DNA of 64,000 bases from Membranipora membranacea (taxonomy: Eukaryota; Bryozoa; Gymnolaemata; Cheilostomatida; Membraniporidae). The stretch is taken from assembly GCA_914767715.1 (NCBI GenBank), contig OU612066.1, positions 38,912,283 to 38,976,282 on the forward strand, in the 5' to 3' direction. The notes below the pieces were generated by a model. The model ran no database searches. It was not told the origin of the DNA and saw nothing but the letters and a program-made list of their open reading frames with translations. Positions 5,295 through 27,077 of this stretch are shown here, one piece after another. The position numbers were made by a program, and so were the translations under genes. Within the stretch, counting starts at the first letter, position 1; every line of letters begins with the position of its first letter.

Positions 5295-5365
5295 CCGTTA
5301 CTCCTGCATGCAATGCTCATTGCTGGAAGCATTAGGACCACAGTAAGGTAGTATATTATCTTCAT
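5295..5365 (-). pseudogene. secreted Cys-rich peptide family, copy C, orphan first coding exon
   Basis: The minus strand reads a polypyrimidine tract and CAG acceptor (exon start 5368), ATG at 5365, 23 codons, then donor GG|GTATGT after 5295. The encoded piece is a signal-peptide-like start (MKIIYYLTVV...) followed by one cysteine in ACRSN. It matches exon 1 of copies A and B. The intron is replaced after about 55 bases by the foldback at 3072-5237, and no second exon is present downstream, so this copy appears broken. A 5' untranslated exon end with donor GTAAGT is preserved at about 5936. Confidence 0.7.
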
Positions 5366-6180
5366 CTTCTGTAAAAGAAACTCAATCTTTAACTTAATGC
5401 ATCAAAAATATTTGCCCTAAAGCTTTGAAAATGCAGGAAATATTTGGACTGAATAATACTCAACTGAATCATTAGTCTCTTGCAAGCTTGTACTATAGAT
5501 TTGTACGATCTCAAGCAATGAGCATTTCAATGTCAAGATATAAGTCAAGAATTGATGCACATGAACTACTGATGGATGACCAAAACACTTGTCTGCGAAT
5601 GAGAGGGTGATCACTCAGTAAGCAATCGATGATGAGCTTAAAGTGTTAAAATGTGATTGGGACAGAGACATCTCTTCTTGATAACAGGTGAAGAGGCTCA
5701 TGGAACAAACGCAGAGCTTCATATAGGTGAGCTCAATATAGGCGTGCTCACGGACAACTGATTACTTATTTTATCAAATGGCAGAGTTTTTGGTCTTCAA
5801 ACATATTTTGGTCACAAATCTGTACCCCCTTATCATTACGCAGCTACTTTATCCATAAATATAAAAGATCGTATCGGATAAAAAGTTGAGCATGACCAGA
5901 TTCAGTCAAGTGAAGTGCAATTATTCAAAACTTACCCAGTCAAGTTGTGCGCTAATGTTTGACATTTAGGCTTTGGCAAGATTTTGCAATATGGTTGTTT
6001 TAGGGACCCCAACATAAGAAGTGCAGCACACGTTAAAGATGTGAAACAAGATCCATGGCAAAATGTCACCTCATATATGAACAACTAATATGAGGAACAT
6101 ATGTTTTAAGTTTACATTTGGGATAGATATATTTGGCTGTATATGATAACTAACACACAGTGCTCATTTTGAGTGACTGA
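5366..6180 (-). repeat. 5' flank of peptide copy C and adjoining duplicated sequence
   Basis: About 5380-5960 matches the sequence upstream of exon 1 in copies A (13260-13744, opposite strand) and B (18984-19443), including the 5'UTR intron. From about 5950 it jumps into another part of the same repeat (the GGCTTTGGCAAGATTTTGCAATAT block also seen near 7460, 12940 and 19770), so the copy is rearranged and lacks the TATA-like promoter. Confidence 0.6.
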
Positions 6181-6238
6181 TTGTTATATGAGAGGCTCAG
6201 TGTGGCAGAGCAGATGGAATTGACGGTGCCTAATACTG

Positions 6239-6529
6239 ATGGAATTGACGGTGCCTTGGGAAGAAAATCTCTCATATGCGCATGAGAGAAAACTGACAAG
6301 ATACGAAGATCTGGTCACACAATGCCAAGACAAAGGTTGGAATTGCGAATTATTCGCAGTGGAAGTTGGCTGCCGTGGATTCATGGCTAGATCAGCTACC
6401 AAATTTCTGACTAGAGTTGGGCTTTCAGGAAGAGCACTCAAACAAGCCACAAAAAGCATAGTACATGAGGCAGAAAGCGCATCTGCATGGATATGGCAAC
6501 AGCACTGTGTGAAGACAAAAGCTAAGTAA
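6239..6529 (+). pseudogene. fragment of a recurring invertebrate ORF (ELTVPWEE motif)
   Basis: A 96-codon open frame starts MELTVPWEENLSYAHERKL, then has VEVGCRGFMARS and a helical tail ending SASAWIWQQHC. I know this pattern as a piece found repeatedly in invertebrate proteins linked to reverse-transcriptase ORFs; its function is unknown to me. The start is duplicated: an 18-base segment ATGGAATTGACGGTGCCT also stands at 6214, out of frame. The fragment sits inside the peptide-gene repeat block and is probably a retroelement remnant. Confidence 0.5.
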
Positions 6530-6639
6530 TCCTATTACTTGTAAGCTGTAGAGTAATACACAGAGCATCTCTTATACTCAGTCATGTAAAATATCCTTAT
6601 TAGAACAATGTGGTGAAACAAAAACTATGGAGAGCTTTC

Positions 6640-7195
6640 TCATTGAAATAAACAACACTCCAGGCAGGACAGTGGACAAGTCAAAGACGGTTTTACATAT
6701 CTGGCAAAAATTTCAAAACTGCTGATATAATAGAATTAAACTGTTCAGAGAAACAATCAAATTGCAACAAATTTCAATAACAGAATTGCATCTTATGTCA
6801 GTTATTTTAATGAGAAAGCTCTTCATTTCCATAAGGATATTTTACATGTGTGAGTATAAGATATAATTATCATCTGCGTATTACTACTTTCTACTCTGTT
6901 TCACTGAGGCTCTGATATAACAATCAGTAAATCATAAAAAGCCCCATGTGTAAATTATAATATATAACTAAATATAACTATCTCTGTAAATCTACCACAG
7001 CTTGTGTAGTTCACATAAATATGAAGTGGACTTTGAATAAAATAATGAGTTGTCCTAGCTTTTTAAATTTTTTTCATTTCTGATAAAGATGAAAAACAAC
7101 ACACATGCATGTAAAAGTTTTCAATTTTCATTGTAATGTCTTTTATAGAAGAAAATATCTAGGATTTTTGTCTTAGGTATGTTGATCAGCTGGGT
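6640..7195 (-). repeat. dispersed repeat: 3' flank of the peptide gene
   Basis: It shares long matches with 17920-18458, 20740-21120 and 24830-25051: the CACTCCAGGCAGGACA block, the TGAGTATAAGATATAATTAT block, the CTGAGGCTCT block, and the block before TCTAGGATTTTTG. In minus orientation it lies just after the stop codon of the peptide coding exon 2, so it is the 3'UTR and downstream flank carried along in each duplication. Confidence 0.8.
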
Positions 7196-7259
7196 TTACT
7201 TCCTACCAAATCCAACACAGACATTACATAGACACAAGGGTGTATACTTTGGACAGTCG
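7196..7259 (-). pseudogene. secreted Cys-rich peptide family, orphan second exon
   Basis: On the minus strand, acceptor GACAG precedes 7259. The frame matches copy B exon 2: DCP, then cysteines, ending VGFGRK and TAA at 7196. It has four cysteines in this exon (copy B has three) because the segment before the last Cys reads LCNVC. No first exon is found upstream. The intron joins directly to promoter-flank sequence at about 7295, so this is probably a pseudogene, unless an unrelated upstream exon is used. Confidence 0.65.
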
Positions 7260-7289
7260 CTGTCAAGTTTTACCGTTTTGATTTGGGTA

Positions 7290-7900
7290 GACAGATAACT
7301 TCAGGGTTTGCATCAGACTTGGAATGATTTCAAAACAATAATGAGCTTGGTACCCAGACAAAAAATGGTGAAATGAGTCAAATAAAGCCAAGCTGGACCT
7401 AACATAACATGTCACAACTAATTACTCTAAAGTGATTATTTTAAGAGGAAATGTTTGACATTAAGGCTTTGGCAAGATTTTGCAATATATTTGTTATAGC
7501 GTAAGAAGTGCCAGCATGCGTTTGTGGTGCGAAACAAAATCCATGTCAAAAGTGTCATTTCATACGTGAACAGCCAATATGATGAAATGTCAATTTAAAA
7601 AAATATTTATCGAACCAAATTAGCAAATAAACAATTTTAGCAAATTGTTAATGTACCACTTGGTGCTTTTAGGGGCACCCAAGCGTAAAAAGTGCCAGCA
7701 TGCGTTTGTGAAAAGTGTCATTTCATAAGTGGCAATATAAAGAAATAGCAGTTGTTCAAATTAACTAATCAAACCACATTGGCAGTGAGAAAATTCGAGC
7801 AATTTGTTTTTGTACCACTTGGTGCTTTTCTTTGCTGAAATTTGCTGGATTCTTTGCCCTGAAAAGTTAGAGAATATTAGTATTTACCCTTGTCTAAACT
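7290..7900 (-). repeat. dispersed repeat: upstream flank of the peptide gene
   Basis: It matches 12480-13110 (opposite strand), 19590-20150 and 25375-25500. Shared blocks are GGGTTTGCATCAGAC, GAGTCAAATAAAGCCAAGCT, AGGAAATGTTTGACAT and GTGCCAGCATGCG. A second internal copy of the last block lies at 7690-7720. It is the promoter-side flank in the intact copies. Confidence 0.75.
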
Positions 7901-8675
7901 AAATTATTACAGTAGATCACTAGCTTCTATGGTCAATAATGCTGCAAAGTCAATCTAGCCACCTGACCTTATGTTCAAAGTAACCATCAACATTGCATAG
8001 ACTGTGTGATTTGGCTTGGTAAATTAAATCACCGATCGACTAATTGTGTCCATCACATCACCAGTGTAACACAGAGTTTAGTTTGTGATCAATGCTTGGA
8101 ACTGAGTCATGTTTGTGATGCAATTAAAATGTTGACCGGACAGTTTCAATCTATAACAACTCAGCTCAATCTAGTGGTGAGGCGTGCGTGTAGTTGTTTG
8201 CAGTCGATCAAAGGTTTTGTCACATTGACATGCTTCTTGTCTAAGAACAGATATGCAGTTGCTGCTCCATTTTACCTTTGCAAACAATTGACCATGATGT
8301 CCAAGAAAACTTATTGATTGTTACACTTTCAATTTGTTCCCTCAGTTTATCGCCACAAACAAACAACTTCTGTAAAACTGCTATGCTTTTCCCCATGCTA
8401 CACTATGGATGTAAAGTCAGGATAGCCTCTATTTCCAAGTTCTACAGCTAATACCTTCCATATGTTCTTTAAAACGTCAACACCACTCCTGTTCTCGCAA
8501 TTCTGGTCTTGGTTATCATGAATTGAAAAATGTGGTTTTACAACGGATATTATCAATATAATAATATGATCAATATATATACTTTATTCTGTCTCTGCCG
8601 TTATGGTTAAGAAATATTGGTTTTGTAGAGCTAAAAAGTTACTAGTGATATAAAAGTCTGCACATTATAAAAATA
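7901..8675. other. intergenic, no gene recognised
   Basis: One plus-strand open frame of 103 codons (8006-8317) has no recognisable domain. The rest is AT-rich with no exon or RNA signal I can support. Confidence 0.35.
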
Positions 8676-11118
8676 TTATCTTATGAAGAAAACGGAGTTT
8701 AAAAATTTCACACATTGTGCTCTAAAGCATTGTCTCCATAGCTCTATCCTACATTTGATATTACAGTAGCGCCCTGATGGAAGCGTAGCTAGGGCTAATA
8801 TTGGCTCATTGTCTGTTGCATACATACGAAGACAACGGTTCTTAAAAACTCTGGTAAAAACCTCGCACAGAGATGGGACTTCACAGTCAGCTAAAAAGCT
8901 AGCGGTTGATATAACATCATGGAGTTGCGACATGTTTTGGATATATGGCCAAATAATGTCATAGATGATAAATAAAAACACAATCAATGAAAGTATAGTA
9001 ACATCGCATTCTGATTGGTTTAGAAATACCAAGAGAGGACAACTTCTTCATAATAAACAGGCGCTTACGAGCTTTCTCGATTACTGCCTCAGAATGTGCC
9101 TTAAAGATCAACTTGTGGTCAACAGTGGTACCTAAATATACAAATGACTCGACCTGCTCGACTACTGTGCCATTGATTTCCAGGGGATCACATGCACGGT
9201 TGTCTCTCATGTTGGTAAATATGAGTTCTTTAGTTTTAGAGACATTGAGGAGCAGATCTTGCGAGCTGAACCAGCTGGTTAGACATTCTGCTGCAGCAGG
9301 TAATGTAGATGGTACATTAGGATAGCATAGCTCTAGTAAGATTGTATCATCTGCATATTTGATAAGGTGATAGTTACCCATCGATGGTACCGGCATATCC
9401 TGTACATAAATTGTGAATAGGATTGGGCTCCATACACAGCCCTGGGGCGAGCCTGTTGAAGATGTCTTAACGAGTGATTTGGCTTCTTTCGTAGCCACCC
9501 ACTGCTTACGATTCACCAGGAAGCTATGTATCAGGTTCAGCATGTTGTTGTGTATTGAAGAGGACTTCAGCTTGTCTACGAGAAGTGTAGGGCTTCTGGT
9601 ATTAAAAGCGCTAGTAAAGTCCACAAAGAGGCAGCGTGCATAGTTCTTAGAATTTGCATCGAGGTGCTCCGTAACCGTATCTAAGAGGACAGTGAGTGCA
9701 TCTTCTGTTGAGCGATGCTCTCTGTAGGCAAATTGACTGTCATCTGTCAAACATTTGGTAAGTAGTGGCTTCGTGACTCGCTCAAAGGTCTTAGAGAGGA
9801 CTGATGTAAGGGCTATCGGTCGATAGTCCTTGGCCACATTTGCAGTGTTTGACTTTGGGATTGGCTTGATAACAGCATTTTTCCATACATCTGGATATTT
9901 ACCCTCCTTGATACAGTCATTGAATAAATCACATAGAGGATCACCAAGTGCATAGGCTGCAGTTTTGAGTAATTTACCTGGAATGCCATCTGGTCCACAG
10001 CTTTTTCTGGTATCAGTTTGACGTAGGGTTTTGATGACGTCACCAGCAACCAGCTTAGGGATATTATCGCTGCAGAGTGGAGGTAGCTCGGGAGGGTCCT
10101 GGGTTTTCTCGAAACGAAGATAGAAGTCATTAAGAGCGTTAGGGTCTACATTACACTCTTTTGGAGGCTGATTGTTTAGTTTAATAACTTCTTTCAAACG
10201 TTTCCAGGATTGCCTATCACTTGTTTTGAATTCCTGCTCTACGGTCTTAGCATAGCTTCTTTTTGCTCTCCGTATTTCACATTGTAGCTCAGTTTCTATA
10301 TCATTGAGTTTGGCACGATCGCATGAATTTAGTGCAGCGGTCCGAGCCGTCAGGAGCGTTCTGATCTTGCCAGTTATCCATGTTTTGTCATTACTGACAA
10401 CTCGATTAACAGTTGGAACGCATTCACCAAGGCAAAAAGCTAGGTAATCTGACATAATTTCTGCTTTCTCAGAAGAGTCACTTACATTGTCTGTCAGCAC
10501 AGACCAATCAGTAGTTTCTATAGCAGATAGCTGCTTTTCTGTGGTATCATCATTCCACTTACGGACAGGAACTGTAGTTTTCACTAGATATCTGCTTACA
10601 GGTTTATAACGAGGGATGAGAGCTACTGGAATGTGGTCTGACTTGCCAAGTTTTCCTAGAGGGTAGCTCTTGAATGCATTCTTGAACTTTATATAACACT
10701 TATCCAATGTTTTTGACTTCCTAGTTGGACAAGTGACCTGCTGGTAGAAGCTAGGGAGTTTAATATCAATGTGGTTGAGGTCACCAAGTGCTATTATAGT
10801 GGAATTAGGGTTGACTTTCTCAAGGGCATCTATTTGGTGATTGATTGTTTTTATGGTTTCCTTGGCAACGTTGTTAAGTGTTGACTCAAACACAGCTGCA
10901 TATATCAACAATACCGTGATAGCTGAGACTTCTCGTGGGGTCCAAAATGGCCGCAGGGAGATAGCCATAGTTTCCAAATAATGGCTGGAGTGGGTCGACA
11001 TGACATGAAATGAATCGCACCAATGTTTATTGATATACAGTACTAATCCACCACCTATTGTTTTATCCATGCTAATTACATTCCTGTCCGCCCTCACTGT
11101 CATATAATCTGCTAAGGC

Positions 11119-11406
11119 CATTGAATTCCATATCTGGAATAGCATCATTAGCTTTCTTTTGCAAAACAAAGGGCTTGCAAAAATAGCCAGTCCCTAGTAG
11201 CGATCTAGAAATGCCCTAATCATCGACACCGTATGGGGTATAATTACTGTTTGCAATTTTGTAAACAAGACAATTTCTCAGGCTAATTATTCATGCTACT
11301 AGGGACAGCCAATCAGATAACAGTCAGATGGGTCCCTGTGTTTAGTGTCCTAACCGTATAACGCTATGATACTATTTCCATTCTAAGAGAAGAATCTAAT
11401 TCAGTG
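11119..11406. mobile_element. 288-bp non-autonomous DNA transposon, hAT-like, inside the retrotransposon
   Basis: It is flanked by a perfect 8-bp duplication GCTAAGGC (11111-11118 and 11407-11414). Its ends are inverted repeats CATTGAATT and (complement) CACTGAATT. Reading across the flanks with the insert and one duplication removed makes the endonuclease frame continuous (DSQIA then LADYMTV), which independently fixes the boundaries. An 8-bp duplication is typical of hAT elements; no transposase is inside. Confidence 0.85.
11190..11306. mobile_element. 117-bp MITE nested in the hAT-like insert
   Basis: Perfect 12-bp terminal inverted repeats GTCCCTAGTAGC at 11190-11201 and the complement at 11295-11306, flanked by a 5-bp direct repeat AGCCA (11185-11189, 11307-11311). 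Superfamily not assigned. Confidence 0.75.
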
Positions 11407-11660
11407 GCTAAGGCTATCTGAGAATCCAGAAATTTGTCTGATAGCCATGTCTCTGTTATTGCAATTAGACAGCAGTTTTGCAATAAACTTGTGGTCAGCA
11501 AGGCTTCAAGTTGATCAACCTTGTTGTACAAACGGTTAGTATTAGCTAGCAGTATAGATGGTAGTGCTGCTTTGATCATTCCTTTGTACTTGAGCTCCCT
11601 GAGACTTTGTCTGACTCCAGCTCGTTTGCCTCTTTTCTTGCTCCTGAGCAGCTCTGGATG

Positions 11661-11804
11661 ACTGCACTTGATTTACTCCTTATAATTATCAGTCCACACC
11701 TGTTTTTGAGTGTCCTTTGTGGTCTTTCTGAGTTTTAGGAGACTGTTTCTATCAATTGTGGTAGCTTTGAATGATCAGAGTGGCTTATGACCAGTCAATA
11801 TAGC
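11661..11804. other. 5' remnant of the CR1/L2-like element
   Basis: The minus strand stays open in pieces above the endonuclease start, but no further domain is recognisable. Probably leader or ORF1 remnant. Confidence 0.3.
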
Positions 11805-12245
11805 CAGTGGCGTATATTAGCACTCACGGCCCACGGATATCCGTGAGTGGCTGAATAGCTCAGTGTGTAGAGCGGCTGAATAGCTCAGTGTGTAGAGCGT
11901 CTGCTTTATAATCACTGTTAATCAGATTGTTGCGGGTTCGAATCCCGTCAAGGTCAGTTTTTTTTTCAAATGGGTGCTTTATAACTGGAGCATTTTTACC
12001 GTAATCTTCTACTGCTATTGAGTTGTTTTCTGAAAGTACCCAACAGCTCAGTGAGCTATTGAAATACCTCTCTGCTTGCACTATTTTGCTACCGATATGC
12101 AAAAATTTCCGTGGTCGGAGGGCGCTTAAGCGCCCCTCCCACACCCTCCCCGCCAAGCCTACGGCGTGTGGATCGGGCTGCGCCCGATCATTATGCTCAT
12201 CTCTAAAAAGTCAGTGAGTGAAAATTTTTAGAATATACGCCCCTG
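11805..12245. mobile_element. 441-bp non-autonomous hAT-like element carrying a tRNA-like unit
   Basis: Terminal inverted repeats CAGTGGCGTATATT (left) and CAGGGGCGTATATT (right, complement) differ at one position. Both sides carry a perfect 8-bp duplication AATATAGC (11797-11804, 12246-12253). The inside holds a palindrome CACTCACGG/CCGTGAGTG, a tRNA-like sequence, and GC-rich hairpins (GGGCGCTTAAGCGCCC and ATCGGGCTGCGCCCGAT). No transposase frame. Confidence 0.88.
11849..11957 (+). repeat. tRNA-like sequence (SINE head or tRNA pseudogene) with duplicated A box
   Basis: A-box-like TAGCTCAGTGTGTAGAGC occurs twice in a 25-bp tandem duplication (11849-11873, 11874-11898). A B box GGTTCGAATCC stands near 11935. 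The acceptor stem pairs poorly (TGGCTGA against TCAAGGTCA), so it is unlikely to be a working tRNA gene. Confidence 0.7.
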
Positions 12246-12479
12246 AATATAGCAATAAAATCACAATTTTTCAGGAGCTCTAACAAAACACGGCCGCCAT
12301 TCCCGGCGCCAAAATCTGCACAGCTTTCTCAAGTAAAACAACCAAACTGGATGCCAATCATCACGACTAATGTCATAATTTGTCATAATTCACCGACCCT
12401 TGCAATCGGGACCCCAAAACAATGTAAAAATCATTGTGTATAGCCAGAGCTCAACTGTTCAAATGGTTGGTGTCCTCTA

Positions 12480-13260
12480 TTTTTGAGGATATACACTTTG
12501 TGCTATCAATATCTAAATGATGATTTTGATATTTGAGATACTATTTTGCACTTCATATGCAGCCACAATTGATCAACTTTAATAAAGCAAATGTCCGTGA
12601 TTTATGCTTCTGGGATGTGTGCTCTGGTAGCACTCCATAGTATTATGCAGCATCATTGGCAATAGAGGCTAGTGGTCTACTGTAATAATCAATTTTAGAG
12701 AATGGTAAATGCCAATATCTTTATCCTTGGGCAAACAAAAATACACTCATTTTCAGCAAAAAGCACCAAGTGGTACACTAACAATTTGCTAAGGTCCTCT
12801 TTTTGCAAATTTTTTTAAAAAGTTTATTGTGAAAATTGACACTTCCTCATATTGACATGGAATTCTTTTTGCATCATAATTGCATGCTGGCACTTCGTAC
12901 GTTGGGTGGCCCTACATCAAATAAATTGTAAAATCTTGACAAGCCTAAATGTCAAACATTTCCTCTTGAAATACCAACTTCAGAGTAATAGGTGGTGACA
13001 CATGTTATGTTAGATCATGCTTGGCTTTATTTGAGTCAAATAAAGCCAAGCTGGTTCATTATCGTTTTGAAATCATTCCAAGTCTGAGACAAACCCTACA
13101 ATTTTCTTTAAAGGAACTTCCTCATTAACAACTGACCTATTTAAGCACGACGTCTATATGAAGTTAATCAAATCATGGGAAGAACAGCTAAACTACCCAG
13201 GCTACAGACACAACTTGAATGGATATATTTTGAATGTTTGAACTTCACTTGACTGAATCT
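12480..13260 (+). repeat. upstream flank of peptide copy A, with TATA-like box and 5'UTR exon
   Basis: It is the reverse complement of 19430-20150, the flank of copy B. A TATA-like CTATTTAAGC lies at 13138-13147, at the place where copy B has CTATATAAGC. The following transcribed leader ends ACAACTTGAATGG near 13222. In copies B and C the equivalent position is followed by donor GTGAGT or GTAAGT; here it reads ATATAT, so the leader intron donor of copy A is lost or moved. Confidence 0.65.
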
Positions 13261-13744
13261 GGTCATTTGCTTAATTTTTTAATTTGTTACAATCTTTCGT
13301 ATTCATAAACTCAGACATTGTCTCATGGTTAAGGGTACAGATTGGTGACCGATGGGGCCACGATATGTTTGAAGAACAAAAACTTTGCTATTTGATATAA
13401 AGATTAGACAGGGCTCCTTATGCAGAGCTGGTGTTCTACAGGCCTCAGCGCCTGTAATCAAGAGGATATATTTCTCCCTACATATCACACTATCACTTTT
13501 TTGCACTTTAAACTCATCATCATTCCTGACAATCATATACAGTGTGTTAGTCATGTATAAGCAGTTCATGTAAATCAATTCACCATTTAAATCATGGCTG
13601 TATTACAGTACAATGTAGCTCTCATGGGATATTGAAAATTTAGAGTATAAGCTTGCAAGTGGGGAATGTTTCAGTTGAGACATTATTCGGAACAAACCCC
13701 TCCTCCTTGCTTTTTGATTTTAAAAGGTGAAGATTTTTTTTCAG

Positions 13745-14136
13745 ATGATGAAGATAATATACTACCTTACTGCGGTCTCAATGCTGGCAGCTTCAGCAAT
13801 GAGCATAGATTCATGTAGGAGTAATAGGTATGTAGATTACATGTTTCATCATTGATAATACATCTCACTGATTGGTCTAGCCTGCTGTACCCATTGCAAT
13901 TTAATGTCTAAAACCTTAAGTTTATGTGCCACCCACGTTTTGTCATTTCATCATTCTCTTTTTATAAATCTGCACCTATGGCAATCAGTATCTTAGAACT
14001 GACTGTTTTTCTAACAAAATTATGAATTGATATCAGACCATCATCTGCTCTATTTTACAGAGACTGTCCAATTCCTCGAAGCATTTGTCTCCCGGGTATA
14101 CATAGGTGTATACATTTTGGGTTCTTCGGTAAATAG
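13745..14136 (+). CDS. small secreted four-cysteine peptide, copy A (two coding exons)
   Basis: Exon 1 is 13745-13827 (acceptor TTTTTTTCAG before it, ATG ATG start, donor AG|GTATGT). Exon 2 is 14061-14136 (acceptor CTATTTTACAG, stop TAG). Both junctions split an arginine codon in the same phase as in copy B. The product is 52 residues: a signal peptide of about 20 (basic n-region, hydrophobic core, small residues before cleavage near AMS), then a mature part of about 32 with Cys24, 30, 37 and 44 (spacing 5, 6, 6) around the motif CRSNRDCP, ending GFFGK. The C-terminal Gly-Lys could be an amidation signal. I do not recognise the family; the CxSNxDCP core loosely recalls EB-type or other small disulfide modules. 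The leader-intron donor is degenerate, so expression is uncertain. Confidence 0.7.
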
Positions 14137-14309
14137 TAAACCAAGCTGATCAACACTACTGAGACAGAAATCCAGACTTTTATTTCTATACTGTGACATT
14201 ATCATTAACATTAACACACTCTTGTCTTGTGTTTCTTCTTTATTATAATGTAATAAAATGAATCAACAAGTACAACTCTTATTAGAAGTAGTCATCTTAT
14301 TGGTCTAAA
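14137..14309 (+). other. 3' region of peptide copy A
   Basis: Downstream of the stop, GATCAACACTACTGAGACAG resembles the bases after the stop in copy B (GCTGATCAACATACC), so this is 3'UTR-derived, then diverges. No poly(A) signal assigned. Confidence 0.45.
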
Positions 14310-14426
14310 TCTAAGTGCTCAGGCTGATGCAGTGCAAGTTAGTGACCTTACATTATCAAACACTGATATTGAGTGTTTGATAATACAATGCCATCAACTC
14401 ACATTGAAGCCGTCAGAGCACTTAGA
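14310..14426. mobile_element. 117-bp palindromic MITE
   Basis: The ends TCTAAGTGCT and (complement) TCTAAGTGCT are identical, and the arms pair over most of the length with centre near ATATTGAG. Flanked by CTAAA on both sides (14305-14309, 14427-14431). A related copy is at 50206-50295. Confidence 0.75.
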
Positions 14427-14738
14427 CTAAATTTTCTTATATCATTGAACCAAATAAGCTGTGAGTTTTACAGAAATAGATATATTATAGAGTTGCTTGT
14501 AACTCAAACACAGGGCTTATTATGAGTTGCTGATTGTTAACTGAGAGTTTCAGTGTGACAGAGTAGGACAACAGTAATACACAGATGATAATTATGTCTT
14601 ATACTCACGCATATCAGATATTATCATTAGCACAAAGTTTTTAAATCATAAATAAACAAATAATTCTGTTAACTGACTGTATGGAGTGTGAGTTATGTAT
14701 CCCTGTGCTCAAAATCAAATTGGAATCTACTGAAATCA
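14427..14738. repeat. fragment of the peptide-gene dispersed repeat
   Basis: The stretch 14515-14640 (CTGATTGTTAACTGAGAG, then the complement of ATAAGACATAATTATCATC) is related, in opposite orientation, to 18110-18200 and 20930-21010. No gene seen. Confidence 0.5.
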
Positions 14739-14985
14739 AATAAATTATATTACATCAACAGCTTTGAAACTTGTGAGTGAATAGACAGGTCTACCAAAAG
14801 CCATACCAGTTGAATCTGGTCCTGTCCTACCTGAATGGCCAAGGTTTAAAAAGCTTTGCGTGGTTTTTTCCTAGTTAAACCTTGGCCATTCAGGTAGGAC
14901 AGGACCAGATTCAACTGGTATGGCTTTTGGTAGACCTGTCTATTCACTCACAAGTTTCAAAGCTGTTGATGTAATATAATTTATT
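14739..14985. repeat. perfect long hairpin, 111-bp arms and 25-base loop
   Basis: 14739-14849 and 14875-14985 are exact reverse complements as far as I can check base by base, separated by 25 bases. Transcribed from either strand it would fold into a 111-bp double-stranded RNA. There is no protein-coding frame in it. Perfect arms point to recent origin or gene conversion. A cloning or assembly artefact is the alternative. Confidence 0.9.
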
Positions 14986-15590
14986 AATCAAGCAAATAAA
15001 ATAAAATGCGGAAAATGGTTTGTGCTATTAGTGGAAAAAATGTTCTGAGCAAAGATAAAAAGAAATTTATTGGCAGCTCATCAGCCCCAAATTATATGTC
15101 TAAACAATTTCCCCCCTTTCTCCCATTTCAATCTCATGTTTATTTCAAAAAGAGAAAAGAAATTCAATCCAAAAGTTGGGATCAATCTGCTGTAGATAAT
15201 TTATGGTGTTTACTGCACACTATCACTATGGAGGAAAAATTCCAAACAAATGGGATATCATGATTTTTCACTCTCCCTAGTTATATAACACATACGGTCG
15301 GATAGAGACTGAATATATTTTTTATGTGAAAATAATGAAAATATTCAGTTCAGGGTTGATTTAATGGAAACATAAATTGTGTTATCAAATATTAGGGAAT
15401 GTAGTACCCTTACAGTTTTAGTGACAAATCACCACCCCGTTAAGATTCATATATAGTTCAAGCGTTATTTTTTCAACTCTAGAAGTTGACTGCAGCCCAC
15501 AACACACTTTTTCTATGGTCAAGGACCCTTACCAGCCCTACCAGGTCCCTGACCTTAATAAGCACAGAGCATACCAGATATCACAAGAGC
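14986..15590. other. intergenic, one short open frame
   Basis: An 85-codon plus-strand frame at 15006-15263 begins just after the hairpin and is lysine-rich with no recognised domain. No splice support. Confidence 0.3.
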
Positions 15591-15593
15591 CTA

Positions 15594-15678
15594 AGGTCAC
15601 TTGACCTACACACCTGCGTGGTAAGATCAAGTCTTCATAGCCGAGCAGAGCATCTAGAGTATAGAGGTCACTTGACCT
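15594..15678. promoter_or_regulatory. two palindromes AGGTCA-CT-TGACCT, nuclear-receptor-like sites
   Basis: Perfect inverted half sites AGGTCACTTGACCT at 15594-15607 and 15665-15678, 71 bases apart. A weaker third (GTCACCTGACCT) follows near 15740. AGGTCA is the half site bound by many nuclear receptors. The surrounding bases are also partly repeated (TTTGCAGAGAAT, ATCGGCAGAGAAT), so they may be part of a decayed tandem repeat. No gene start is identified nearby. Confidence 0.4.
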
Positions 15679-15779
15679 ACCGATTTGCAGAGAATTGTTG
15701 GGTCCTAATCCTCTAGCAGTGCATACTAGAGTAAAAAATGTCACCTGACCTGCATATCGGCAGAGAATAGATGATCACA

Positions 15780-17910
15780 TCTGCCAGGCTGATGTAACAT
15801 GGAGAGTATGTATAGGAAAAGTATAGGTAACATGTGTACAACAGAAACAACCAATTGTCAGCATTCATTCAGGATATGCGAGATTCATAACCTGATTGGG
15901 GATGTGAAAGTTAAGGGGAGGAGGAAGAAATAAATCACATATGGTACGGTGAATAAGAGGCCTGATTAATGACGCTCAACGGACTGCCAAATTTTCTGTA
16001 AGACTGTATGTGAATTCATTGATCACTGTAACAGTACACAGTAGGGCAATATGTGATGAAATTCCACCACTATTTTACTCTGTGTCAGTATCTAGCTTTC
16101 ACAGCAAGCTGCTGATAAAAGATGCACGAGTGTAACAGTATTAAACTCATTAACCAATCAGATTGAAGTAGGTGATGTGAGCTTGTCAAACAAACAGCAA
16201 ATATGCATCCCTATCGCGCTACATACACTGCTATGTGCTAGTGAGGGGGATCCAATATTTTCTCCTTATATATGAACATTATATCAGTAGCAATAGATCA
16301 GCTTAGCACAATAAAATGAGAAAAGATGTTTAGTATGATAGCAATGCTCACTCACAGAATGATGATCAGAAATAAGGCGATGCCTTTCTTCAGTCATCAT
16401 AAACTGGTATAAAACTGATTTTTACCGATCATCTCACATACAGCAAGCAGTTAATCCAGAAGAAGCTATGAAGCTGCCTGCCTGCCATTCACAAATGAAG
16501 TAATGAAATGAAATGAATGACAGACAGTCATGAATAATGGACAGCGCTATAACGTGTCTCGATAAACAATTTTGATTGTTGGGAGCATTATCCCCACTGT
16601 AATGTTGTGTTAGTATAAAATACTAATACCTTACACTCTCAATTAGATTTTTCAGGTTTAGTTATTTAGCACGGTCTTATGCATATAGAAAAAGTATATT
16701 TTTGATAATATTTTTAATAAATTTCTTAGGATGATTGATCAATTTTGTCAATTGTTACTGATGGGATGGTGAACTAACGACCAATCTATCACAGCATATC
16801 ATGGCCCTGATTGTTAAACAATTTTTATCGGGGATTCGATTGTTCTGCGATGTCACATTGATAATAATTATAATCAACTAATCAGATGCAAAACTTATTT
16901 TGTTAATACTGCATGCCAATTATATATTAATTCACAAAATGATTTTCCATCAAATTTATCTATGAATGACAAAAAGGTGATGTATTTACATTAAGAGCTG
17001 TTGATATGACCTGTCATTTCAGTTGTCCTCACATGTAAAAGGTAAAGATAATTCTGATTCTTACATACAGTGCTGTTCAATCGAATGGTTTTCTTCTCAC
17101 AAACATACATGCCAAAAACTACATGTATGGTGATAAAAGGCTAATCTGCAAAGGCCTGCAGTCGTCTTCCTTAGTTGTGAAGCAAATGAAATAATATGTA
17201 TCACTAAGAAGTTCTTCTAACTCCTTGGTTTTGATGTTAGGGGAATTCGCCAATCAATGTACAACCATTCAAAGCTAAATATATGTTGAAAAATTACCAT
17301 AACCATGTGCCAGATATTGTTGACTTTATTAGCCTGTCACACAGGTTTTATAACCATTATACACAATTGACACTCGACACGATAGGCAAGTGGTGCATTG
17401 TCTGCGACATCTATACTGTTATTTACTCATTAAATTGACCCAGAAGTTAAACGTTGCCGAGTTCATCACTGCTGACTCGCAATGTTTGCAATTAGATCTA
17501 CATCCTCACCTTTAATGTAAATTTCCGCAATGCCATCAACTGTGAACTTCTTTCATAAAATGAAAAACTTTTCCTCATAAAATAACCACCTCACTAAATT
17601 AGCAAATCAATTATGTAACAGTTGAGTTAACAATTGAGTGGACTCTTGTTTGTCTTGTTCATGAAAGGAATCTCTGATATATTGGTGTTACTCAGAGTTG
17701 AGTAGGAGGGATAGGATTATCAAAAAGGTTCAGCCTCCTTATCTAACTGATAGAACAAGGACAAGAACAGCCAATGACTCTAAGTGAGTAAGTTACCCTT
17801 CTAATTTTACAGTATACCATTATACCCAGGCAACCAAGTATGTTACCATAAATAATCATATTCACTTCACAACTAAGGAAAAGCATGCTACGCTGTCCAA
17901 ATTTAGCTCA
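15780..17910. repeat. dispersed repeat R2, no gene
   Basis: About 15940-16100 and 16500-17060 match 34570-34640 and 40530-41190: GGTGAATAAGAGGC, GTACACAGTAGGGC, GGAGCATTATCCCCACTGTA, GTTGTCCTCACATGTAAAAG. Here only a single unit resembling the 26-bp satellite monomer is present (near 16530), whereas the other copy carries a long array. The remainder to 17910 shows no exon I can support. Confidence 0.6.
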
Positions 17911-17919
17911 TCAGCAAAT

Positions 17920-18458
17920 TTAAGACACTCCAGGCAGGACACTGGACAAGTTGAGGACGGTTTTTACTGACTTGCTGATTCGATAGAATTTAATTGTTCT
18001 GAGACACAATCAAATTGCAACAAATTTCAAAAACTAAATTGCATCTTATTACAGTTATTTTAATGAGAAAGCCCTTCATTTCCTTGGTTTCGGCACTCAT
18101 AAGGATATTTTACATGTGTGAGTATAAGATATAATTATCATCTGTGTATTACTACTATCTACTCCGTCACACTGAGGCTCTCATATAACAATCAGCAGCT
18201 CATAAGAAGCCCCATGTGTAAACTATGATATACAACTCAATACAACTATCTCTGTAAATCGCCCACAGCATGTATAGTTGACATTAATATGAAGTGTACT
18301 TCTACTTAAATAAAGAGTTGTCCTTGCTGTGTATGTTTATTACATTTTACAGAAAAATAATTCACAAGCATGTAAAAATGTTTTCAATTTTCATCATGAT
18401 GTCACGTACAGAAAGAAATTTCTAGGATTTTTGGCTTAGGTATGTTGATCAGCTGGGT
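17920..18458 (-). repeat. 3' flank of peptide copy B
   Basis: Same dispersed sequence as 6640-7195, 20740-21120 and 24830-25051, lying immediately downstream of the copy B stop codon on the minus strand. Confidence 0.75.
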
Positions 18459-18983
18459 TTACTTCCTACCAACTCCAACACAGCTACCCCAGACACAAAA
18501 GGGTGCATTCAATGGACAGTCGCTGTAAAATAGAGCAGAAGATGGTATGAGGCTTATTTGACAGATTACAACGCCGATGGATTATAATTATTTGCGTACC
18601 TATCTTGTTCTATCCTATTACTTTGAACTTATGTTTGAATGGGTCTTGCACAGTGGGTGACACATAGAGTATAGGATTCAGACAGTTGCTGATCCACACC
18701 GTTACCTTTATAGATAACCTGCTTTTGAATCATTTGCATGAGTTTTATACAACGGTCTACTTAGACAATGTGGTTCGTATTGGTTCGCCATTCAAAGGAA
18801 GACAATCACTTCCTCTATATCCTTACGTTGCCAAAAGGTACGATAGGCTAAACCAACAAGTGAGATGTATTATTAATGCTGAAACATGTTATCTACATAC
18901 CTGTTACTCTTACATGACTTTATGCTCATTGCTGGAGCTGCCAGCATTAGGACCACAATAAGGCAGTATATCATCTTCATCTT
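18459..18983 (-). CDS. small secreted four-cysteine peptide, copy B (two coding exons)
   Basis: Exon 1 is 18901-18983 with acceptor TTTTTTTTCAG; ATG is at 18980 and the donor is CAG|GTATGT. Exon 2 is 18459-18522 with acceptor TATTTTACAG and stop TAA. The split codon is in the same phase as copy A. The product is 47 residues: signal peptide MKMIYCLIVVLMLAAPA, then a mature part with Cys23, 29, 36 and 41 (spacing 5, 6, 4), the motif CKSNSDCP, and a tail ending VGVGRK. Gly-Arg-Lys at the very end is a classic shape for C-terminal amidation; the modification is an inference. A leader exon ends at 19444 with donor GTGAGT, and a TATA box lies at 19538-19545, so this copy looks fully equipped for expression. 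Likely roles are secreted signal, defence or venom-like peptide; the sequence does not choose among them. Confidence 0.8.
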
Positions 18984-19443
18984 CTGAAAAAAAATATTTA
19001 CCTTTTAAAATCAAAGATGTTTGCTCAAAAAGCAAGGAGGATGGGTTTGTTTCGAATGATGTCTCAACTGTAACATTTGCCTCCTGCAAGCTAATACTCA
19101 TTTTCAATATCCCATGAGAGCTACATTGTACTGTAATACAGCCATGATATAAATGGTGATTTGATATACATGAACTGCTTATATATGACTAAAACACTGT
19201 ATATGAATGTAAGGAATGAATCAATGATGAGATTAAAGTGCTAAAAAGTGATAGTGTGATATGTAGAGAGAAATATATCCTCTTGATTACAGGTGCTGAG
19301 GCGCATAAAACACTCGTAGTACTCTATTCTGGGTCTCTGTCTGCGCTTTATATCAAATAGCAAAGTTTTTGGTCTTCAAACATATCGTGGTCACATAGGT
19401 CACCAAACGACATTCAAGTGAAGTGCAAATGTTCAAAACTCAC

Positions 19444-19510
19444 CCAGTCAAGTTGTGTCTTCTGTCTATTGGATTAACTAAGCATGTAGTTTACCTGATA
19501 TTCATGTGAT
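19444..19510 (-). other. predicted 5'UTR exon of peptide copy B
   Basis: About 30 bases below the TATA box, a leader runs to ACAACTTGACTGG and a consensus donor GTGAGT after 19444. The next acceptor is the one before the coding ATG (18983). Upstream ATGs here open only very short frames. Confidence 0.5.
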
Positions 19511-19537
19511 TTGATTTGTGTCACACAGACATTGTGC

Positions 19538-19545
19538 TTATATAG
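19538..19545 (-). promoter_or_regulatory. TATA box of peptide copy B
   Basis: TATATAAG on the minus strand, aligned with TATTTAAG in copy A, a fixed distance from the conserved leader end ACAACTTGA. Confidence 0.6.
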
Positions 19546-19589
19546 GTAGGTCCTAACCTCCTAACCTCCTAACCTCTTAATGACAAAGT

Positions 19590-20160
19590 TCGTTTACAGA
19601 TAACTGCAGGGTTTGCATCAGACTTGGAATGATTCCAAAACAATAATGAGCGTGGTATCCAGACAAAAAATGGTGAAATGAGTCAAATAAAGCCAAGCTG
19701 GACCTAACATAACATGTCACAACTAATCACTCTAAAGTGATTATTTTAAGAGGAAATGTTTGACATCTAGGCTTTGGCAGGATTTTGCAATATATTTGTT
19801 ATAGCTAAGAAGTGCCAGCATGCGTTTGTGATGCGAAACAAAATCCATGTCAAAAGTGTCATTTCATACGTGAGCAGCCAATATGATGAAATGTCAATTT
19901 TTAAAGTGGACCTCTAGCTTCTATTGTCAATGATGCTGCATAGTACTATGGAATACTACCAGTGCACACATCCCAGAAGCTGGTACTTGGATCGCTGGTA
20001 GTTACAGCTGTTTGCGCTAAGTCTAGAAAATCATGGAAATTTGCTATATTATTAAAGCTGATGAATTGTTGCTGCATATGAAGTACAAAATAGTATCTCA
20101 AATATCAAAATCATCATTTAGATATTGATAGCACAAGTGTACCATATGTAATTTAATATT
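19590..20160 (-). repeat. upstream flank of peptide copy B
   Basis: It matches 12480-13110 in inverted orientation and 7290-7900 and 25375-25500 in direct orientation. Duplication of gene plus flanks explains all copies. Confidence 0.75.
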
Positions 20161-20164
20161 TCTT

Positions 20165-20390
20165 AACTGATAGTTATGTCTCTGTTCTTACTTCTCTCTG
20201 TTGACGCATATTGGGAATCATTCATCAATATGATTACAGCCGTCAATCAAATTTATTTAACCGAATTGATTATTGTTCCAATTTGATTTTCCAAAGATGT
20301 ATGAGGAGTCAAAAGAACAGAATCAGAATGCTGCGAAACTAAGGCATGATTTTATCTAGGCCTAGGCAAACTACGGTTTGTCTAGGTCAG
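20165..20390. repeat. dispersed repeat, inverted partner at 34380-34560
   Basis: Shared blocks include TTATGTCTCTGTTCTTAC, GATTACAGCCGTCAATCAAA and TTTGATTTTCCAAAGATGTA. The partner lies directly after the Ty3/gypsy coding region, so this may be an LTR or flanking fragment. Confidence 0.6.
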
Positions 20391-20739
20391 TATATTGTCA
20401 ATCACTGTAATTCCATATTTTGCTCACACTGAGTATCTGAGATAGTGTGGCTGAGCAGCTAGCATTAAATACTGTAGATATGGAGTGGCAGAGATTGACC
20501 TTCAAACTTAAGTGGAAACACAGCGATTGTAAAGGACAAGATAATGATTTGGGCTGTTCTTGAATATTGTTGTAACTTGCCCTAGATAATCATGTGTCGC
20601 TCCCTAGAGACTAGCTTACACATCAGATGTGAAAGGCTACAGCTTTATATGACTCTGAGTATTCTTGCTACCAAGTATGTTATGCATATAATTATATTCA
20701 CTTCACAACTAAGGAAAACCATGCTATTCTGTCCGAATA
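20391..20739. other. no gene recognised
   Basis: AT-rich spacer between two dispersed repeats; short open frames only. Confidence 0.35.
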
Positions 20740-21120
20740 TCCAAGACACTCCAGGCAGGATACTGGACAAGTCAAGGACGGTTTTTACTGACTTGCTGAT
20801 TTGATAGAATTTAATTGTTCCGAGAAACAATCAAATTGCAACAAATTTCAAAAACTGTATTGCATCTTATGTCAGTTACTACAATGAGAAAGTTCTTCAT
20901 TTCCTTGATTTCGGCACTCATAAGGATTTCCATGTGTGAGTATAAGATATAATTATCATCTGTGTATTACTATTATCTACTCTGTCACACTGAGGCTCTC
21001 ATATCACAATCAGTAAATCATAATGACTCCCATGTGTAAGTGAAAATCTACAACTAAGTTATATCTATCTCTGTAAGTCTCCCACAGCTTGTATAGTTCA
21101 CATAAATATAAACACATGTC
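20740..21120 (-). repeat. fragment of peptide-gene 3' flank, no coding exon
   Basis: Same family as 6640-7195, but the match ends before the coding exon, at about 21110. Confidence 0.65.
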
Positions 21121-21309
21121 TATAGAAAAACCCATAACCAGTACCTCATATCATTTTCTTCAAAAAATGTTTTGGAAAAAATAAAAGAAACGGCTCAATC
21201 ACAGTCATGTGTTCTACCACATATGTTTAGTATAAAAAAAAAATGAGCGTGAGTTTTACTTTACCCATATATCTTGAGCATACATCAATGAACATCAGTA
21301 AGCTTCAGC

Positions 21310-21400
21310 GGCTTGGGTGGCCGAGTTGCTAGTGTGCTCGATCACAGCGCAAGCTGACCAAACTCAATTCCCGGTTGTGACCAAATATTAAGCAAAGATG
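21310..21400 (+). repeat. tRNA-derived SINE-like sequence (Ser/Leu-type head)
   Basis: It has GGTGGCCGAGTTG as A box and ACTCAATTCCCGG as a degenerate B box. It is preceded by GCTTCAGCGGC, similar to the start of the copy at 24487. Confidence 0.5.
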
Positions 21401-21641
21401 TGAATAATCTAATATTTTTATATATACACAATTATATCATGCTTGTGGCGCGAGAGGCCCAGATTTTTTTTTATAACCCTATTTGGCATCTATATCATTT
21501 TCAAGAAAATGTTTTTCAAAAGTGCCATTAAAAATAACAAAAAAGAATGACTATAAAAAATGATTGAATTTACATTTTGTCAATTTTACTTCTTGGTGGT
21601 TTAACTTGTTTTGTTACCTATTTATTTACTCAAACTAAATT

Positions 21642-21925
21642 GACTCTAACGATCAGAGATACACAGACTCTAACGATCAGAGATACACAGACTCTAACGA
21701 TCAGAGATACACAGACTCTAACGATCAGAGATACACAGACTCTAACGATCAGAGATACACAGACTCTAACGATCAGAGATACACAGACTCTAACGATCAG
21801 AGATACACAGACTCTAACGATCAGAGATACACAGACTCTAACGATCAGAGATACACAGACTCTAACGATCAGAGATACACAGACTCTAACGATCAGAGAT
21901 ACACAGACTCTAACGATCAGAGATA
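21642..21925 (+). repeat. 24-bp minisatellite, about 12 copies
   Basis: Unit ACTCTAACGATCAGAGATACACAG repeats essentially without change. Because 24 is a multiple of three it leaves an open frame with an eight-residue repeat, which I treat as a by-product. The flank TTGTTTTGTTACCTATTTAT before it also precedes the 27-bp array at 22255. Confidence 0.95.
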
Positions 21926-22254
21926 AGCAGGTTAATAGTTTAGTCTAAATGTCAGTGTGAAGACAACTGACTTTTCATCTGCACAGAAGTGAAGTGGGTC
22001 CGAATTGGCTGTTTCTTTTAAAGGTCATTTCAAAATATTGCCTTGATCTAGACGACCATACTCCTGCTTCATTTGGCACCCTTATTAGATAAGTGGGTTT
22101 ATTTGGGTTTTGGCAGTATCAAAATAATGTTTAGGTTGAGGTTCATTGATGAATGGAAGGGAAAAAAATCTGCTATCCAGCCACATTACCCGAACCTGTT
22201 GTGCCTAGCTAGATCAACCTGTTTTGTTACCTATTTATTACTACTTACACCCAC

Positions 22255-24466
22255 TACATCATTAAATTTAAACACCTGGTCTACATCATTAAATTTAAAC
22301 ACCTGGTCTACATCATTAAATTTAAACACCTGGTCTACATCATTAAATTTAAACACCTGGTCTACATCATTAAATTTAAACACCTGGTCTACATCATTAA
22401 ATTTAAACACCTGGTCTACATCATTAAATTTAAACACCTGGTCTACATCATTAAATTTAAACACCTGGTCTACATCATTAAATTTAAACACCTGGTCTAC
22501 ATCATTAAATTTAAACACCTGGTCTACATCATTAAATTTAAACACCTGGTCTACATCATTAAATTTAAACACCTGGTCTACATCATTAAATTTAAACACC
22601 TGGTCTACATCATTAAATTTAAACACCTGGTCTACATCATTAAATTTAAACACCTGGTCTACATCATTAAATTTAAACACCTGGTCTACATCATTAAATT
22701 TAAACACCTGGTCTACATCATTAAATTTAAACACCTGGTCTACATCATTAAATTTAAACACCTGGTCTACATCATTAAACTTAAACACCTGGTCTACATC
22801 ATTAAATTTAAACACCTGGTCTACATCATTAAATTTAAACACCTGGTCTACATCATTAAATTTAAACACCTGGTCTACATCATAAAATTTAAACACCTGG
22901 TCTACATCGTTAAATTTAAACACCTGGTCTACATCATTAAACTTAAACACCTGGTCTACATCATTAAATTTAAACACCTGGTCTACATCATTAAATTTAA
23001 ACACCTGGTCTACATCATTAAACTTAAACACCTGGTCTACATCATTAAATTTAAACACCTGGTCTACATCATTAAATTTAAACACCTGGTCTACATCATT
23101 AAATTTAAACACCTGGTCTACATCATTAAACTTAAACACCTGGTCTACATCATTAAATTTAAACACCTGGTCTACATCATTAAATTTAAACACCTGGTCT
23201 ACATCATTAAATTTAAACACCTGGTCTACATCATAAAATTTAAACACCTGGTCTACATCGTTAAATTTAAACACCTGGTCTACATCATTAAACTTAAACA
23301 CCTGGTCTACATCATTAAATTTAAACACCTGGTCTACATCATTAAATTTAAACACCTGGTCTACATCATTAAACTTAAACACCTGGTCTACATCATTAAA
23401 CTTAAACACCTGGTCTACATCATTAAATTTAAACACCTGGTCTACATCATTAAATTTAAACACCTGGTCTACATCATTAAATTTAAACACCTGGTCTACA
23501 TCATTAAACTTAAACACCTGGTCTACATCATTAAATTTAAACACCTGGTCTACATCATTAAATTTAAACACCTGGTCTACATCATTAAACTTAAACACCT
23601 GGTCTACATCATTAAATTTAAACACCTGGTCTACATCATTAAATTTAAACACCTGGTCTACATCATTAAATTTAAACACCTGGTCTACATCATTAAACTT
23701 AAACACCTGGTCTACATCATTAAATTTAAACACCTGGTCTACATCATTAAATTTAAACACCTGGTCTACATCATTAAATTTAAACACCTGGTCTACATCA
23801 TTAAATTTAAACACCTGGTCTACATCATTAAACTTAAACACCTGGTCTACATCATTAAATTTAAACACCTGGTCTACATCATTAAATTTAAACACCTGGT
23901 CTACATCATTAAATTTAAACACCTGGTCTACATCATTAAACTTAAACACCTGGTCTACATCATTAAATTTAAACACCTGGTCTACATCATTAAACTTAAA
24001 CACCTGGTCTACATCATTAAATTTAAACACCTGGTCTACATCATTAAATTTAAACACCTGGTCTACATCATTAAATTTAAACACCTGGTCTACATCATAA
24101 AATTTAAACACCTGGTCTACATCGTTAAATTTAAACACCTGGTCTACATCATTAAACTTAAACACCTGGTCTACATCATTAAATTTAAACACCTGGTCTA
24201 CATCATTAAATTTAAACACCTGGTCTACATCATTAAACTTAAACACCTGGTCTACATCATTAAATTTAAACACCTGGTCTACATCATTAAATTTAAACAC
24301 CTGGTCTACATCATTAAATTCAAACACCTGGTCTACATCATAAAATTTAAACACCTGGTCTACATCATTAAATTTAAACACCTGGTCTACATCATTAAAT
24401 TTAAACACCTGGTCTACATCATTAAATTTAAACACCTGGTCTACATCATTAAATTCAAACACCTGG
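22255..24466. repeat. 27-bp minisatellite, about 82 copies
   Basis: Unit CATTAAATTTAAACACCTGGTCTACAT (27 bases; written here as one period) has point variants (AACTTAAAC, CATAAAATTT, CATCGTTAAA). The three-variant signature CATAAAA / CATCGTTAAA / AAACTTAAA recurs at 22881, 23232 and 24096. Those spacings (351 and 864) are exact multiples of 27, showing that larger blocks have been copied. The minus strand stays open for the whole array (743 codons of DQVFKFNDV), while plus-strand frames are broken by TAA variants. There is no start context, intron or flanking domain to suggest a real protein. Confidence 0.95.
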
Positions 24467-24486
24467 ATTATTTTGAAATGAGCTTT

Positions 24487-24575
24487 GCGAGCTTCAGCAG
24501 CCCAGCGTGGCCGAGCGGTTGGAGTGTTTGATCTCAGCGTGAGAGGCCCGAGTTCAATTTACGGGGAGGCAAGAC
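24487..24575 (+). repeat. tRNA-derived SINE-like sequence (Ser/Leu-type head)
   Basis: GCGTGGCCGAGCGGTTGGAGTG is an A-box region and CGAGTTCAATTTACG a B-box region, directly after the 27-bp array. Confidence 0.55.
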
Positions 24576-24829
24576 TAAAAAAGCAAGGAGGGAGCATGGG
24601 GAGGACCCCTTATTACCACAATTATAACATCTTTGTTGCGCTACATTCTATGGCTGTATTCACTGAAAATAATTGTGGGGGGAGCTCTGCCACATGATAG
24701 GACAAGGATACTCCGGCTGTCTACCTCATAGGTGGCATGGAAAGGACAGCAATTTTAATTTGCACTTATAATGGCATCGCCAATATGCCATTCATCATAA
24801 ACTCAATCGACAACCTTAGTGTATATCAT
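24576..24829. other. no gene recognised
   Basis: SINE tail or unique spacer; nothing supported. Confidence 0.3.
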
Positions 24830-25051
24830 CCACACCCCTGAAGTTTCTAGTGTTTCTAGTGTAGTTGACATTAATATGAACTGTACTTCTACTAAAATAA
24901 AGAGTTGTCCTTGCTGTTAACGTTTTTTTTCATTTTTATTAAAGAGGAAAAACGATTTACAAGCATGTAATAGTTTTCAATTTTCATTATAATGTCATGT
25001 ATAGAATAAAATTTCTAGGATTTTTGTCTTAGGTATGTTGATCAGCTGGGT
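24830..25051 (-). repeat. 3' flank of a peptide-gene copy
   Basis: Matches the blocks just downstream of the stop codon in copy B and at 7000-7195. Confidence 0.7.
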
Positions 25052-25106
25052 TTACTTCCTACCAAATCCAACACAGAGACACAAGGGTGTATACTTTAGA
25101 CAGTCG
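25052..25106 (-). pseudogene. secreted Cys-rich peptide family, orphan second exon (shortened)
   Basis: Acceptor GGCAG precedes 25106. The frame reads DCLKYTPLCLCVGFGRK then TAA at 25052. Compared with 7196-7259 it lacks nine bases (three residues) and has P changed to L after the first Cys. The same abnormal junction to GATTTGGGTAGACAGATAACT lies upstream as at 7290, so both derive from one rearranged copy without exon 1. Confidence 0.65.
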
Positions 25107-27012: not shown

Positions 27013-27077
27013 TGTAAATTGAGTTTAGCCCATAAATGGGATGCTCACTCATAGGGTCATGCGGTAACCGTACAGTG

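Follow-up and report, generated by a model that had tools for sequence, protein, structure and literature searches.

A bryozoan family of tiny secreted four-cysteine peptides with a nearly constant signal peptide and a changing mature part

We describe a family of small secreted cysteine-rich peptides in the bryozoan Membranipora membranacea, encoded in part within a 64,000-nucleotide stretch of its genome (assembly GCA_914767715.1, contig OU612066.1, positions 38,912,283 to 38,976,282; hereafter the window, on the contig labelled C2). The family is real and of a known kind, and comprises two intact genes in the window, called A and B here, and no fewer than ten loci outside it, of which two look degenerate. 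A nearly constant signal peptide joined to a changing mature part, as seen in this family, is characteristic of peptides used in defence or as venom. The reading we favour, at about even confidence, is that of a lineage-specific family of tiny, disulfide-stabilised and often amidated effector peptides that would most likely be directed at microbes.

Each complete gene consists of two short coding exons. In gene A, on the forward strand, exon 1 (13745..13827) begins with a start codon at 13745 or 13748 and encodes the signal peptide and the first cysteine; the donor GTATGT at 13828 opens a phase 2 intron of 233 bases (13828..14060), and exon 2 (14061..14136) encodes the mature part with three cysteines and the terminus FFGK before the stop codon. 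Gene B, on the reverse strand, is built in the same way: exon 1 (18901..18980) carries the start codon, signal peptide and first cysteine, the donor GTATGT lies at 18900, the phase 2 intron spans 378 bases (18523..18900), and exon 2 (18459..18522) encodes a mature part with three cysteines that ends in VGVGRK and a stop codon. These are exactly the exon ends proposed in the initial annotation, with donors at 13828 and 18900 and acceptors that finish right before 14061 and 18522. The ends of the two introns align and their interiors do not, as is expected of a real intron. Once spliced, the genes yield precursors of 52 (A) and 47 (B) residues, each with a hydrophobic signal followed by four cysteines and a C-terminal GK or GRK. 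The cysteine spacing after the signal is C-x5-C-x6-C-x6-C in A and C-x5-C-x6-C-x4-C in B.

AATAAA lies 115 bases past the stop codon of gene A (14252..14257, forward strand) and 117 bases past that of gene B (18336..18341, reverse strand), and occurs 111-117 bases past the stop in units A, B and D, the last an incomplete copy described below. Upstream of gene B there is a TATA-box-like site (19180..19185, reverse strand); the pattern TATAWA is matched upstream of B alone, A having TATAAG in that place. A T-run that closes with CAG (18984..18994, reverse strand) ends three bases before the ATG of gene B, and in A, B and a further signal exon, C', such T-rich runs either abut the ATG or stop three bases short of it; similar sites precede the family members on the contigs labelled C7 and C10. 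Because these sites next to the ATG resemble splice acceptors, we think that an untranslated exon or a spliced leader probably precedes what we call the first exon.

A motif scan of both strands of the window recovered the three signal exons and four mature exons listed in the initial annotation, and no others. Three of the five units are incomplete, and all units other than A lie on the reverse strand, so that orientation is mixed, as had been noted. Unit C' (5295..5365) is an orphan signal exon with its donor intact (best 10-residue hydrophobicity mean 2.37, compared to 1.74 in A and 3.23 in B); its second exon was not found in the window, and it has neither form of the TATA site. Unit C (7196..7259) is an orphan mature exon that ends in VGFGRK; its promoter and signal exon are deleted and its AATAAA is lost. 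Unit D (25052..25106), another orphan mature exon with the terminus VGFGRK, shares the deletion junction of C and has an insert of about 215 bases. The claim of four cysteines after the signal applies only to A and B, the two complete genes; of the orphans, the mature exon at 7259 has four cysteines by itself and that at 25106 three. The intron phase is constant at 2, as exon lengths and first bases show: the length of exon 1 from the ATG is 2 mod 3 in every signal exon, and the mature exons open with the base that completes the codon.

Several lines of evidence suggest that the exons are coding. Each of the five exonic indels has a length divisible by three, compared to 5 of the 20 indels in the flanks (p 0.005), with the exons codon-aligned by hand, which favours this result, and the 20 flank indels being a subset of the pairwise comparisons chosen to prevent double counting of events. 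A motif scan gave four matches in the window and none in 60 Markov sequences, and neutral simulations started from B or C ended with the features of exon 2 intact in 0.14%, 1.4% and 5.8% of the runs; in both analyses the features were picked after the data had been seen.

The family extends far beyond the window. We searched the whole assembly (339 Mb, 18 contigs). At the DNA level, in a search that skips very common words, exon 1 has three matches and exon 2 has four, all of them inside the window, and there are no DNA matches to the family in the 20 kb to the left of the window. A protein search with B gave eight matches, four in the window and four outside at E 1.1-3.3. Three of the four outside matches, all on C7, are frames without an intron that share the signal and carry four cysteines after it and an acceptor-like site ahead of the ATG; the fourth match, which lies on C10, lacks those features. 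Across six precursor pairs, none of the 2000 shuffles made for each pair, in which the composition of signal and mature parts was kept, reached the observed alignment score. A DNA pattern that combines the acceptor, the ATG and the codons of the signal, derived from B, C' and the C7 loci, was found at 12 places, compared to none for the reversed pattern: two in the window, nine on C7 and one on C10, and seven of the 12 were new to the analysis. Gene A does not fit the pattern, and the 12 loci together with gene A are a lower bound for the family. The ten loci outside the window, labelled L057 to L066, share the signal and the acceptor-like site, have different mature parts and lack the intron that lies inside the first cysteine loop of the window copies. 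L059 and L060 (C7:3954347 and 3958016) have identical coding parts, lie 3.6 kb apart in inverted orientation, and differ at 7 of 188 upstream flank positions; L061 and L062 form a pair, L063 to L065 a trio, and L066 stands alone on C10. Cysteine spacings in these outside loci are C-x2-C-x5-C-x8-C, C-x2-C-x5-C-x4-C and C-x3-C-x5-C-x4-C.

The pattern CxSNxDC without an intron has 295 matches in the genome, compared to 127 for the reversed pattern. Twelve regions (13 matches) picked by hand among the CxSNxDC matches listed look unrelated to the window family: they comprise four copies of another cysteine-rich peptide, frames with CKTNSDC (three) and C(V/N)TN(A/K)DC (two), short frames with CxTNTDC (two) and CKSNSDC (one), and one EGF-like sequence. 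When the DNA of these 12 regions was compared with A and B, a single match resulted (E 0.46). Elsewhere on the contig of the window, four near-identical intronless frames spread over 42 kb (C2:6003500-6049500) encode a secreted cysteine-rich peptide with CSSNRDCYSC after the signal; they have no DNA relationship to the window family.

The contrast between signal and mature parts is strongest between L059 and L066. In the first 20 codons, which encode the signal, there are three synonymous and no changing differences (of 44 changing sites), compared to 17.4 changing (of 58.5 sites) and 1.6 synonymous (of 16.5) in the 25 codons of the mature part, aligned by hand with a one-codon gap. The flanks of this pair differ at 5 of 150 positions 3' and 32 of 200 upstream, and changing differences in the mature part exceed those expected from the 3' flank (p 6e-7) and from the signal (p 3e-5). 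Across four close pairs, two of which share L063, 21 positions differ (one of them a gap), none within residues 1-19 and none at a cysteine. The numbers of changing and synonymous differences are 6 and 1 for L061 and L062, 5 and 1 for L063 and L064, and 2 and 0 for L063 and L065, with none between L059 and L060. The simplest reading of these comparisons is diversifying selection on the mature part.

C-terminal amidation is suggested by the ends of many members. A GK or GRK terminus is present in all four mature exons of the window, and amidation-type ends occur in five of the ten loci outside it (GG in L061, GK in L062, G in L063 and L064, GR in L066). The amidating enzyme is probably present in the genome: the copper monooxygenase family has 14 matches, one of which, an exon at C3:3204273, reads as peptidylglycine alpha-amidating monooxygenase (PAM; E 1.4e-8 against solved structures), as a single exon and not an assembled gene. 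By visual inspection, another copper monooxygenase match, L031, resembles a relative of dopamine-beta-hydroxylase. Precursors of sponge phoenixin are described as carrying an amidation site (PMC9004410), which would make amidation plausible in sponges too. The proposal in the initial annotation of a processed, secreted four-cysteine peptide is well supported, and the amidation signals add to this support.

The precursor made by each gene would be about 40-52 residues long; its nearly constant signal peptide would be cleaved off, the four cysteines would form two disulfides, and a C-terminal glycine, with lysine or arginine, would be converted to an amide in many members. If the genes are expressed, a compact peptide of some 20-30 residues would leave the cell. 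Divergence of the mature parts while signal and cysteines hold would fit an arms race, and the likeliest targets may be microbes, either pathogens or resident symbionts. Several observations weigh against this reading. Within the window, substitution tests are individually not significant: in A versus B, changing sites of exon 2 compared to the 3' flank give p 0.066 and exon 1 compared to the upstream flank p 0.11; changing versus synonymous differences give p 0.26 for B versus C and p 0.17 for B versus D; and exon 2 compared to the 3' flank in C versus D gives p 0.07. Outside it, changing versus synonymous differences in the mature parts of L059 and L066 give p 0.21, the comparison with the upstream flank reaches only 0.037, and the other close pairs differ little (p 0.18 for L061 and L062 compared to the 3' flank). 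The main alternative to diversifying selection is gene conversion that homogenises both ends of the gene, which could mimic fast evolution of the mature part. A mosaic structure that bears on this alternative is present in the window too, where A and B are about 92% identical over the 300 bases before the signal exon and 74% identical in the 3' flank. An amidation end is absent from L059, L060 and L065, and also from L057 and L058, which look degenerate, with three cysteines and run-on frames. The signal peptide was assessed by hydrophobicity only, and the net charge before amidation (+2 in A, +1 in B) is weak for a membrane-active antimicrobial peptide.

The peptides resemble several known families at the level of architecture. 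No tested member of the family reaches the cutoff of any Pfam family. Nearest for A and B is Nodulin_late (PF07127), with weak matches that span the signal and the cysteine part (20.6 bits for B and 19.1 for A, below the curated cutoff of 30.4); none of five further family members matches it at E 10, nor do two precursors rearranged by hand, whose composition was not checked. Legume NCR peptides are described as having a conserved signal and a highly diverse mature part of 20-50 residues with four or six cysteines (PMC7230169, PMC6594739), and A and B share this combination of signal, mature length and cysteine number as given in PMC7230169. NCR peptides are expressed specifically in legume nodules, whereas the host of the window is an animal. 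Because none of the five relatives matches Nodulin_late, we treat the likeness as convergence. Among animals, the nearest kind is CRP-I of Mytilus mussels, described as lineage-specific, secreted and cysteine-rich, with a conserved signal, a positively selected mature region in the last exon and an untranslated first exon; many copies lack exons, and amidation was assumed for one tested peptide (PMC10138031). The constant signal and diversified mature part recur here, with the gene-conversion alternative remaining for the latter. Unlike CRP-I, which has a six-cysteine C-C-CC-C-C arrangement and dibasic propeptide cleavage according to PMC10138031, the window family has four cysteines, no CC pair and no propeptide. 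Aphid BCR peptides are also secreted, cysteine-rich animal orphans, some of them antimicrobial (PMC6594739); compared by description only, they have more cysteines (six or eight) and longer mature peptides (44-84 residues).

Among solved structures the best match has an E value of 0.29. This is the spider toxin omega-atracotoxin-Hv2a (PDB 1g9p, 1hp3), with which B aligns over a CxSNxDC stretch and, further on, over a CxxGSCV stretch; there is no evidence of descent, and the spider CC pair is absent in B. Coral-type SCRiPs have eight cysteines. One of them, Hact-SCRiP1 (PDB 7lx4), aligns weakly with A over 21 residues (E 0.42), again with no evidence of descent. Toxin families of Pfam stay below their cutoffs (Toxin_23 at best 15.8 bits compared to 22.2, Toxin_29 13.3 compared to 25, and Toxin_11). 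An alignment of the A and B precursors found no candidate homologue among 5.8 billion proteins in a search that needs three shared 5-residue words, which makes it weak evidence of absence. The donor-site pattern found 2 and 3 stretches in viral and prokaryote contigs, none with the remaining exon, which we read as chance, and the 3' flank pattern had no match in viral contigs. Narrow literature searches found no publication on the window family, which may still be published.

The present analysis does not distinguish roles in defence, venom and signalling, and our ranking is provisional: a microbe-directed effector first, a venom or deterrent second and signalling third. Use of the same secreted peptides as venom or as a chemical deterrent against animals is possible, if unlikely. 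Venom peptides commonly combine a constant signal, a changing mature part and amidated ends, and the below-cutoff matches point the same way (Toxin_23 at E 0.016-0.018, Toxin_11 at 0.11, Toxin_29 at 0.087-0.17, and the atracotoxin alignment); no toxin match passes its cutoff, however, and intact copies in the window cluster are few. That the peptides are hormones or neuropeptide-like signals appears improbable. The amidation-type ends and the amidating-enzyme exon would suit such a role, but dibasic processing is absent from the middle of the precursors and mature sequences change fast outside the cysteines, which most receptor ligands do not. As a more specific version of a microbe-directed role, the animal may have independently evolved an NCR-like set of amidated peptides with four cysteines to control its resident bacterial symbionts, the mature parts being adjusted as the partners change; we consider this quite improbable.

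Two further alternatives concern the cluster itself. One is that it has wholly decayed, so that A and B are recent pseudogenes and the family functions only elsewhere in the genome. This would account for the incomplete units, the non-significant selection tests in the window and the lack of TATA or AATAAA matches in C' and C, but A and B have kept their reading frame, their splice sites and AATAAA, and the features of exon 2 rarely survive neutral simulation; we regard it as rather improbable. The other takes the units for copies of a transposable element with a chance open frame. The region is rich in retroelements and repeats, and two palindromes lie near unit edges, yet exons 1 and 2 and their flanks match nowhere else in the assembly, very common words being skipped. 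We reject this origin, which the window-only DNA matches largely refute and which seems very improbable.

The array of duplicates over 20 kb described in the initial annotation does exist, with shared upstream and 3' sequence among its units, as a set composed mostly of remnants; two of the five units look intact (A and B) and the others look as if they are decaying. In C', likeness to the other units stops inside the intron, beside a repeat also present at 3073-3507. In units C and D the far 5' flank runs nearly straight into exon 2; therefore, promoter and signal exon were removed by one shared deletion, of 1066 bases as measured on B. A scan for alternative first exons 5' of C and D found none. 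The bases that D gained later at the deletion junction suggest a mobile insert, as a repeated TGTAGTTATCT, noticed by eye, flanks both sides. The far 5' flanks of C (7291-7596) and B (19596-19900) are 96% alike and their 3' flanks about 82%, and we read C and B as having undergone recent exchange. A 3' flank that stands alone (20667..21112, reverse strand) fits as the continuation of unit D past 3.7 kb with two minisatellites: a 24-base array (21642-21925) and a 27-base minisatellite (22254-24466; 82 copies at 97%) part unit D from its 3' flank. The latter has long open frames on both strands, including one of 743 amino acids on the reverse strand. The palindromes close to unit edges (14739-14985, 91% self-complementary; 25498-25797, 74%) are possible fold-back elements.

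Other features of the window include an exon of an MROH2B-like HEAT-repeat gene (63526-63810, E 2.8e-15), further exons of which may lie in 57-64 kb, and two related LRAT-domain frames on the reverse strand (46318-46734 and 49282-49758), the second with no homologue at E 1e-5. A tyrosine-recombinase frame and a reverse-transcriptase frame on the reverse strand (26062-28644) resemble a DIRS-type element, and a reverse-transcriptase frame of a long interspersed nuclear element (8959-11169, 736 amino acids) has closest relatives 66% identical, mostly on short metagenome contigs. The best-scoring named relatives of the window retroelements are from fish and a hemichordate; together with the MROH2B-like exon and the LRAT-like frames, they point to an animal host. 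A tRNA-like Rfam match (11874-11956, 35.5 bits), not called by ARAGORN, overlaps a 25-base tandem repeat.

Coding exons of fewer than 90 bases may escape annotation, and a layer of animal immunity or of chemical defence may thus lie hidden in genes of this size. In the close pairs and trio (L059/L066, L061/L062 and L063 to L065), the signal is unchanged, the 3' flank is nearly unchanged and the mature part has changed. With both intron-bearing and intronless members, the family could provide a compact case for the study of effector diversification and of the origin of an intron inside a cysteine loop.

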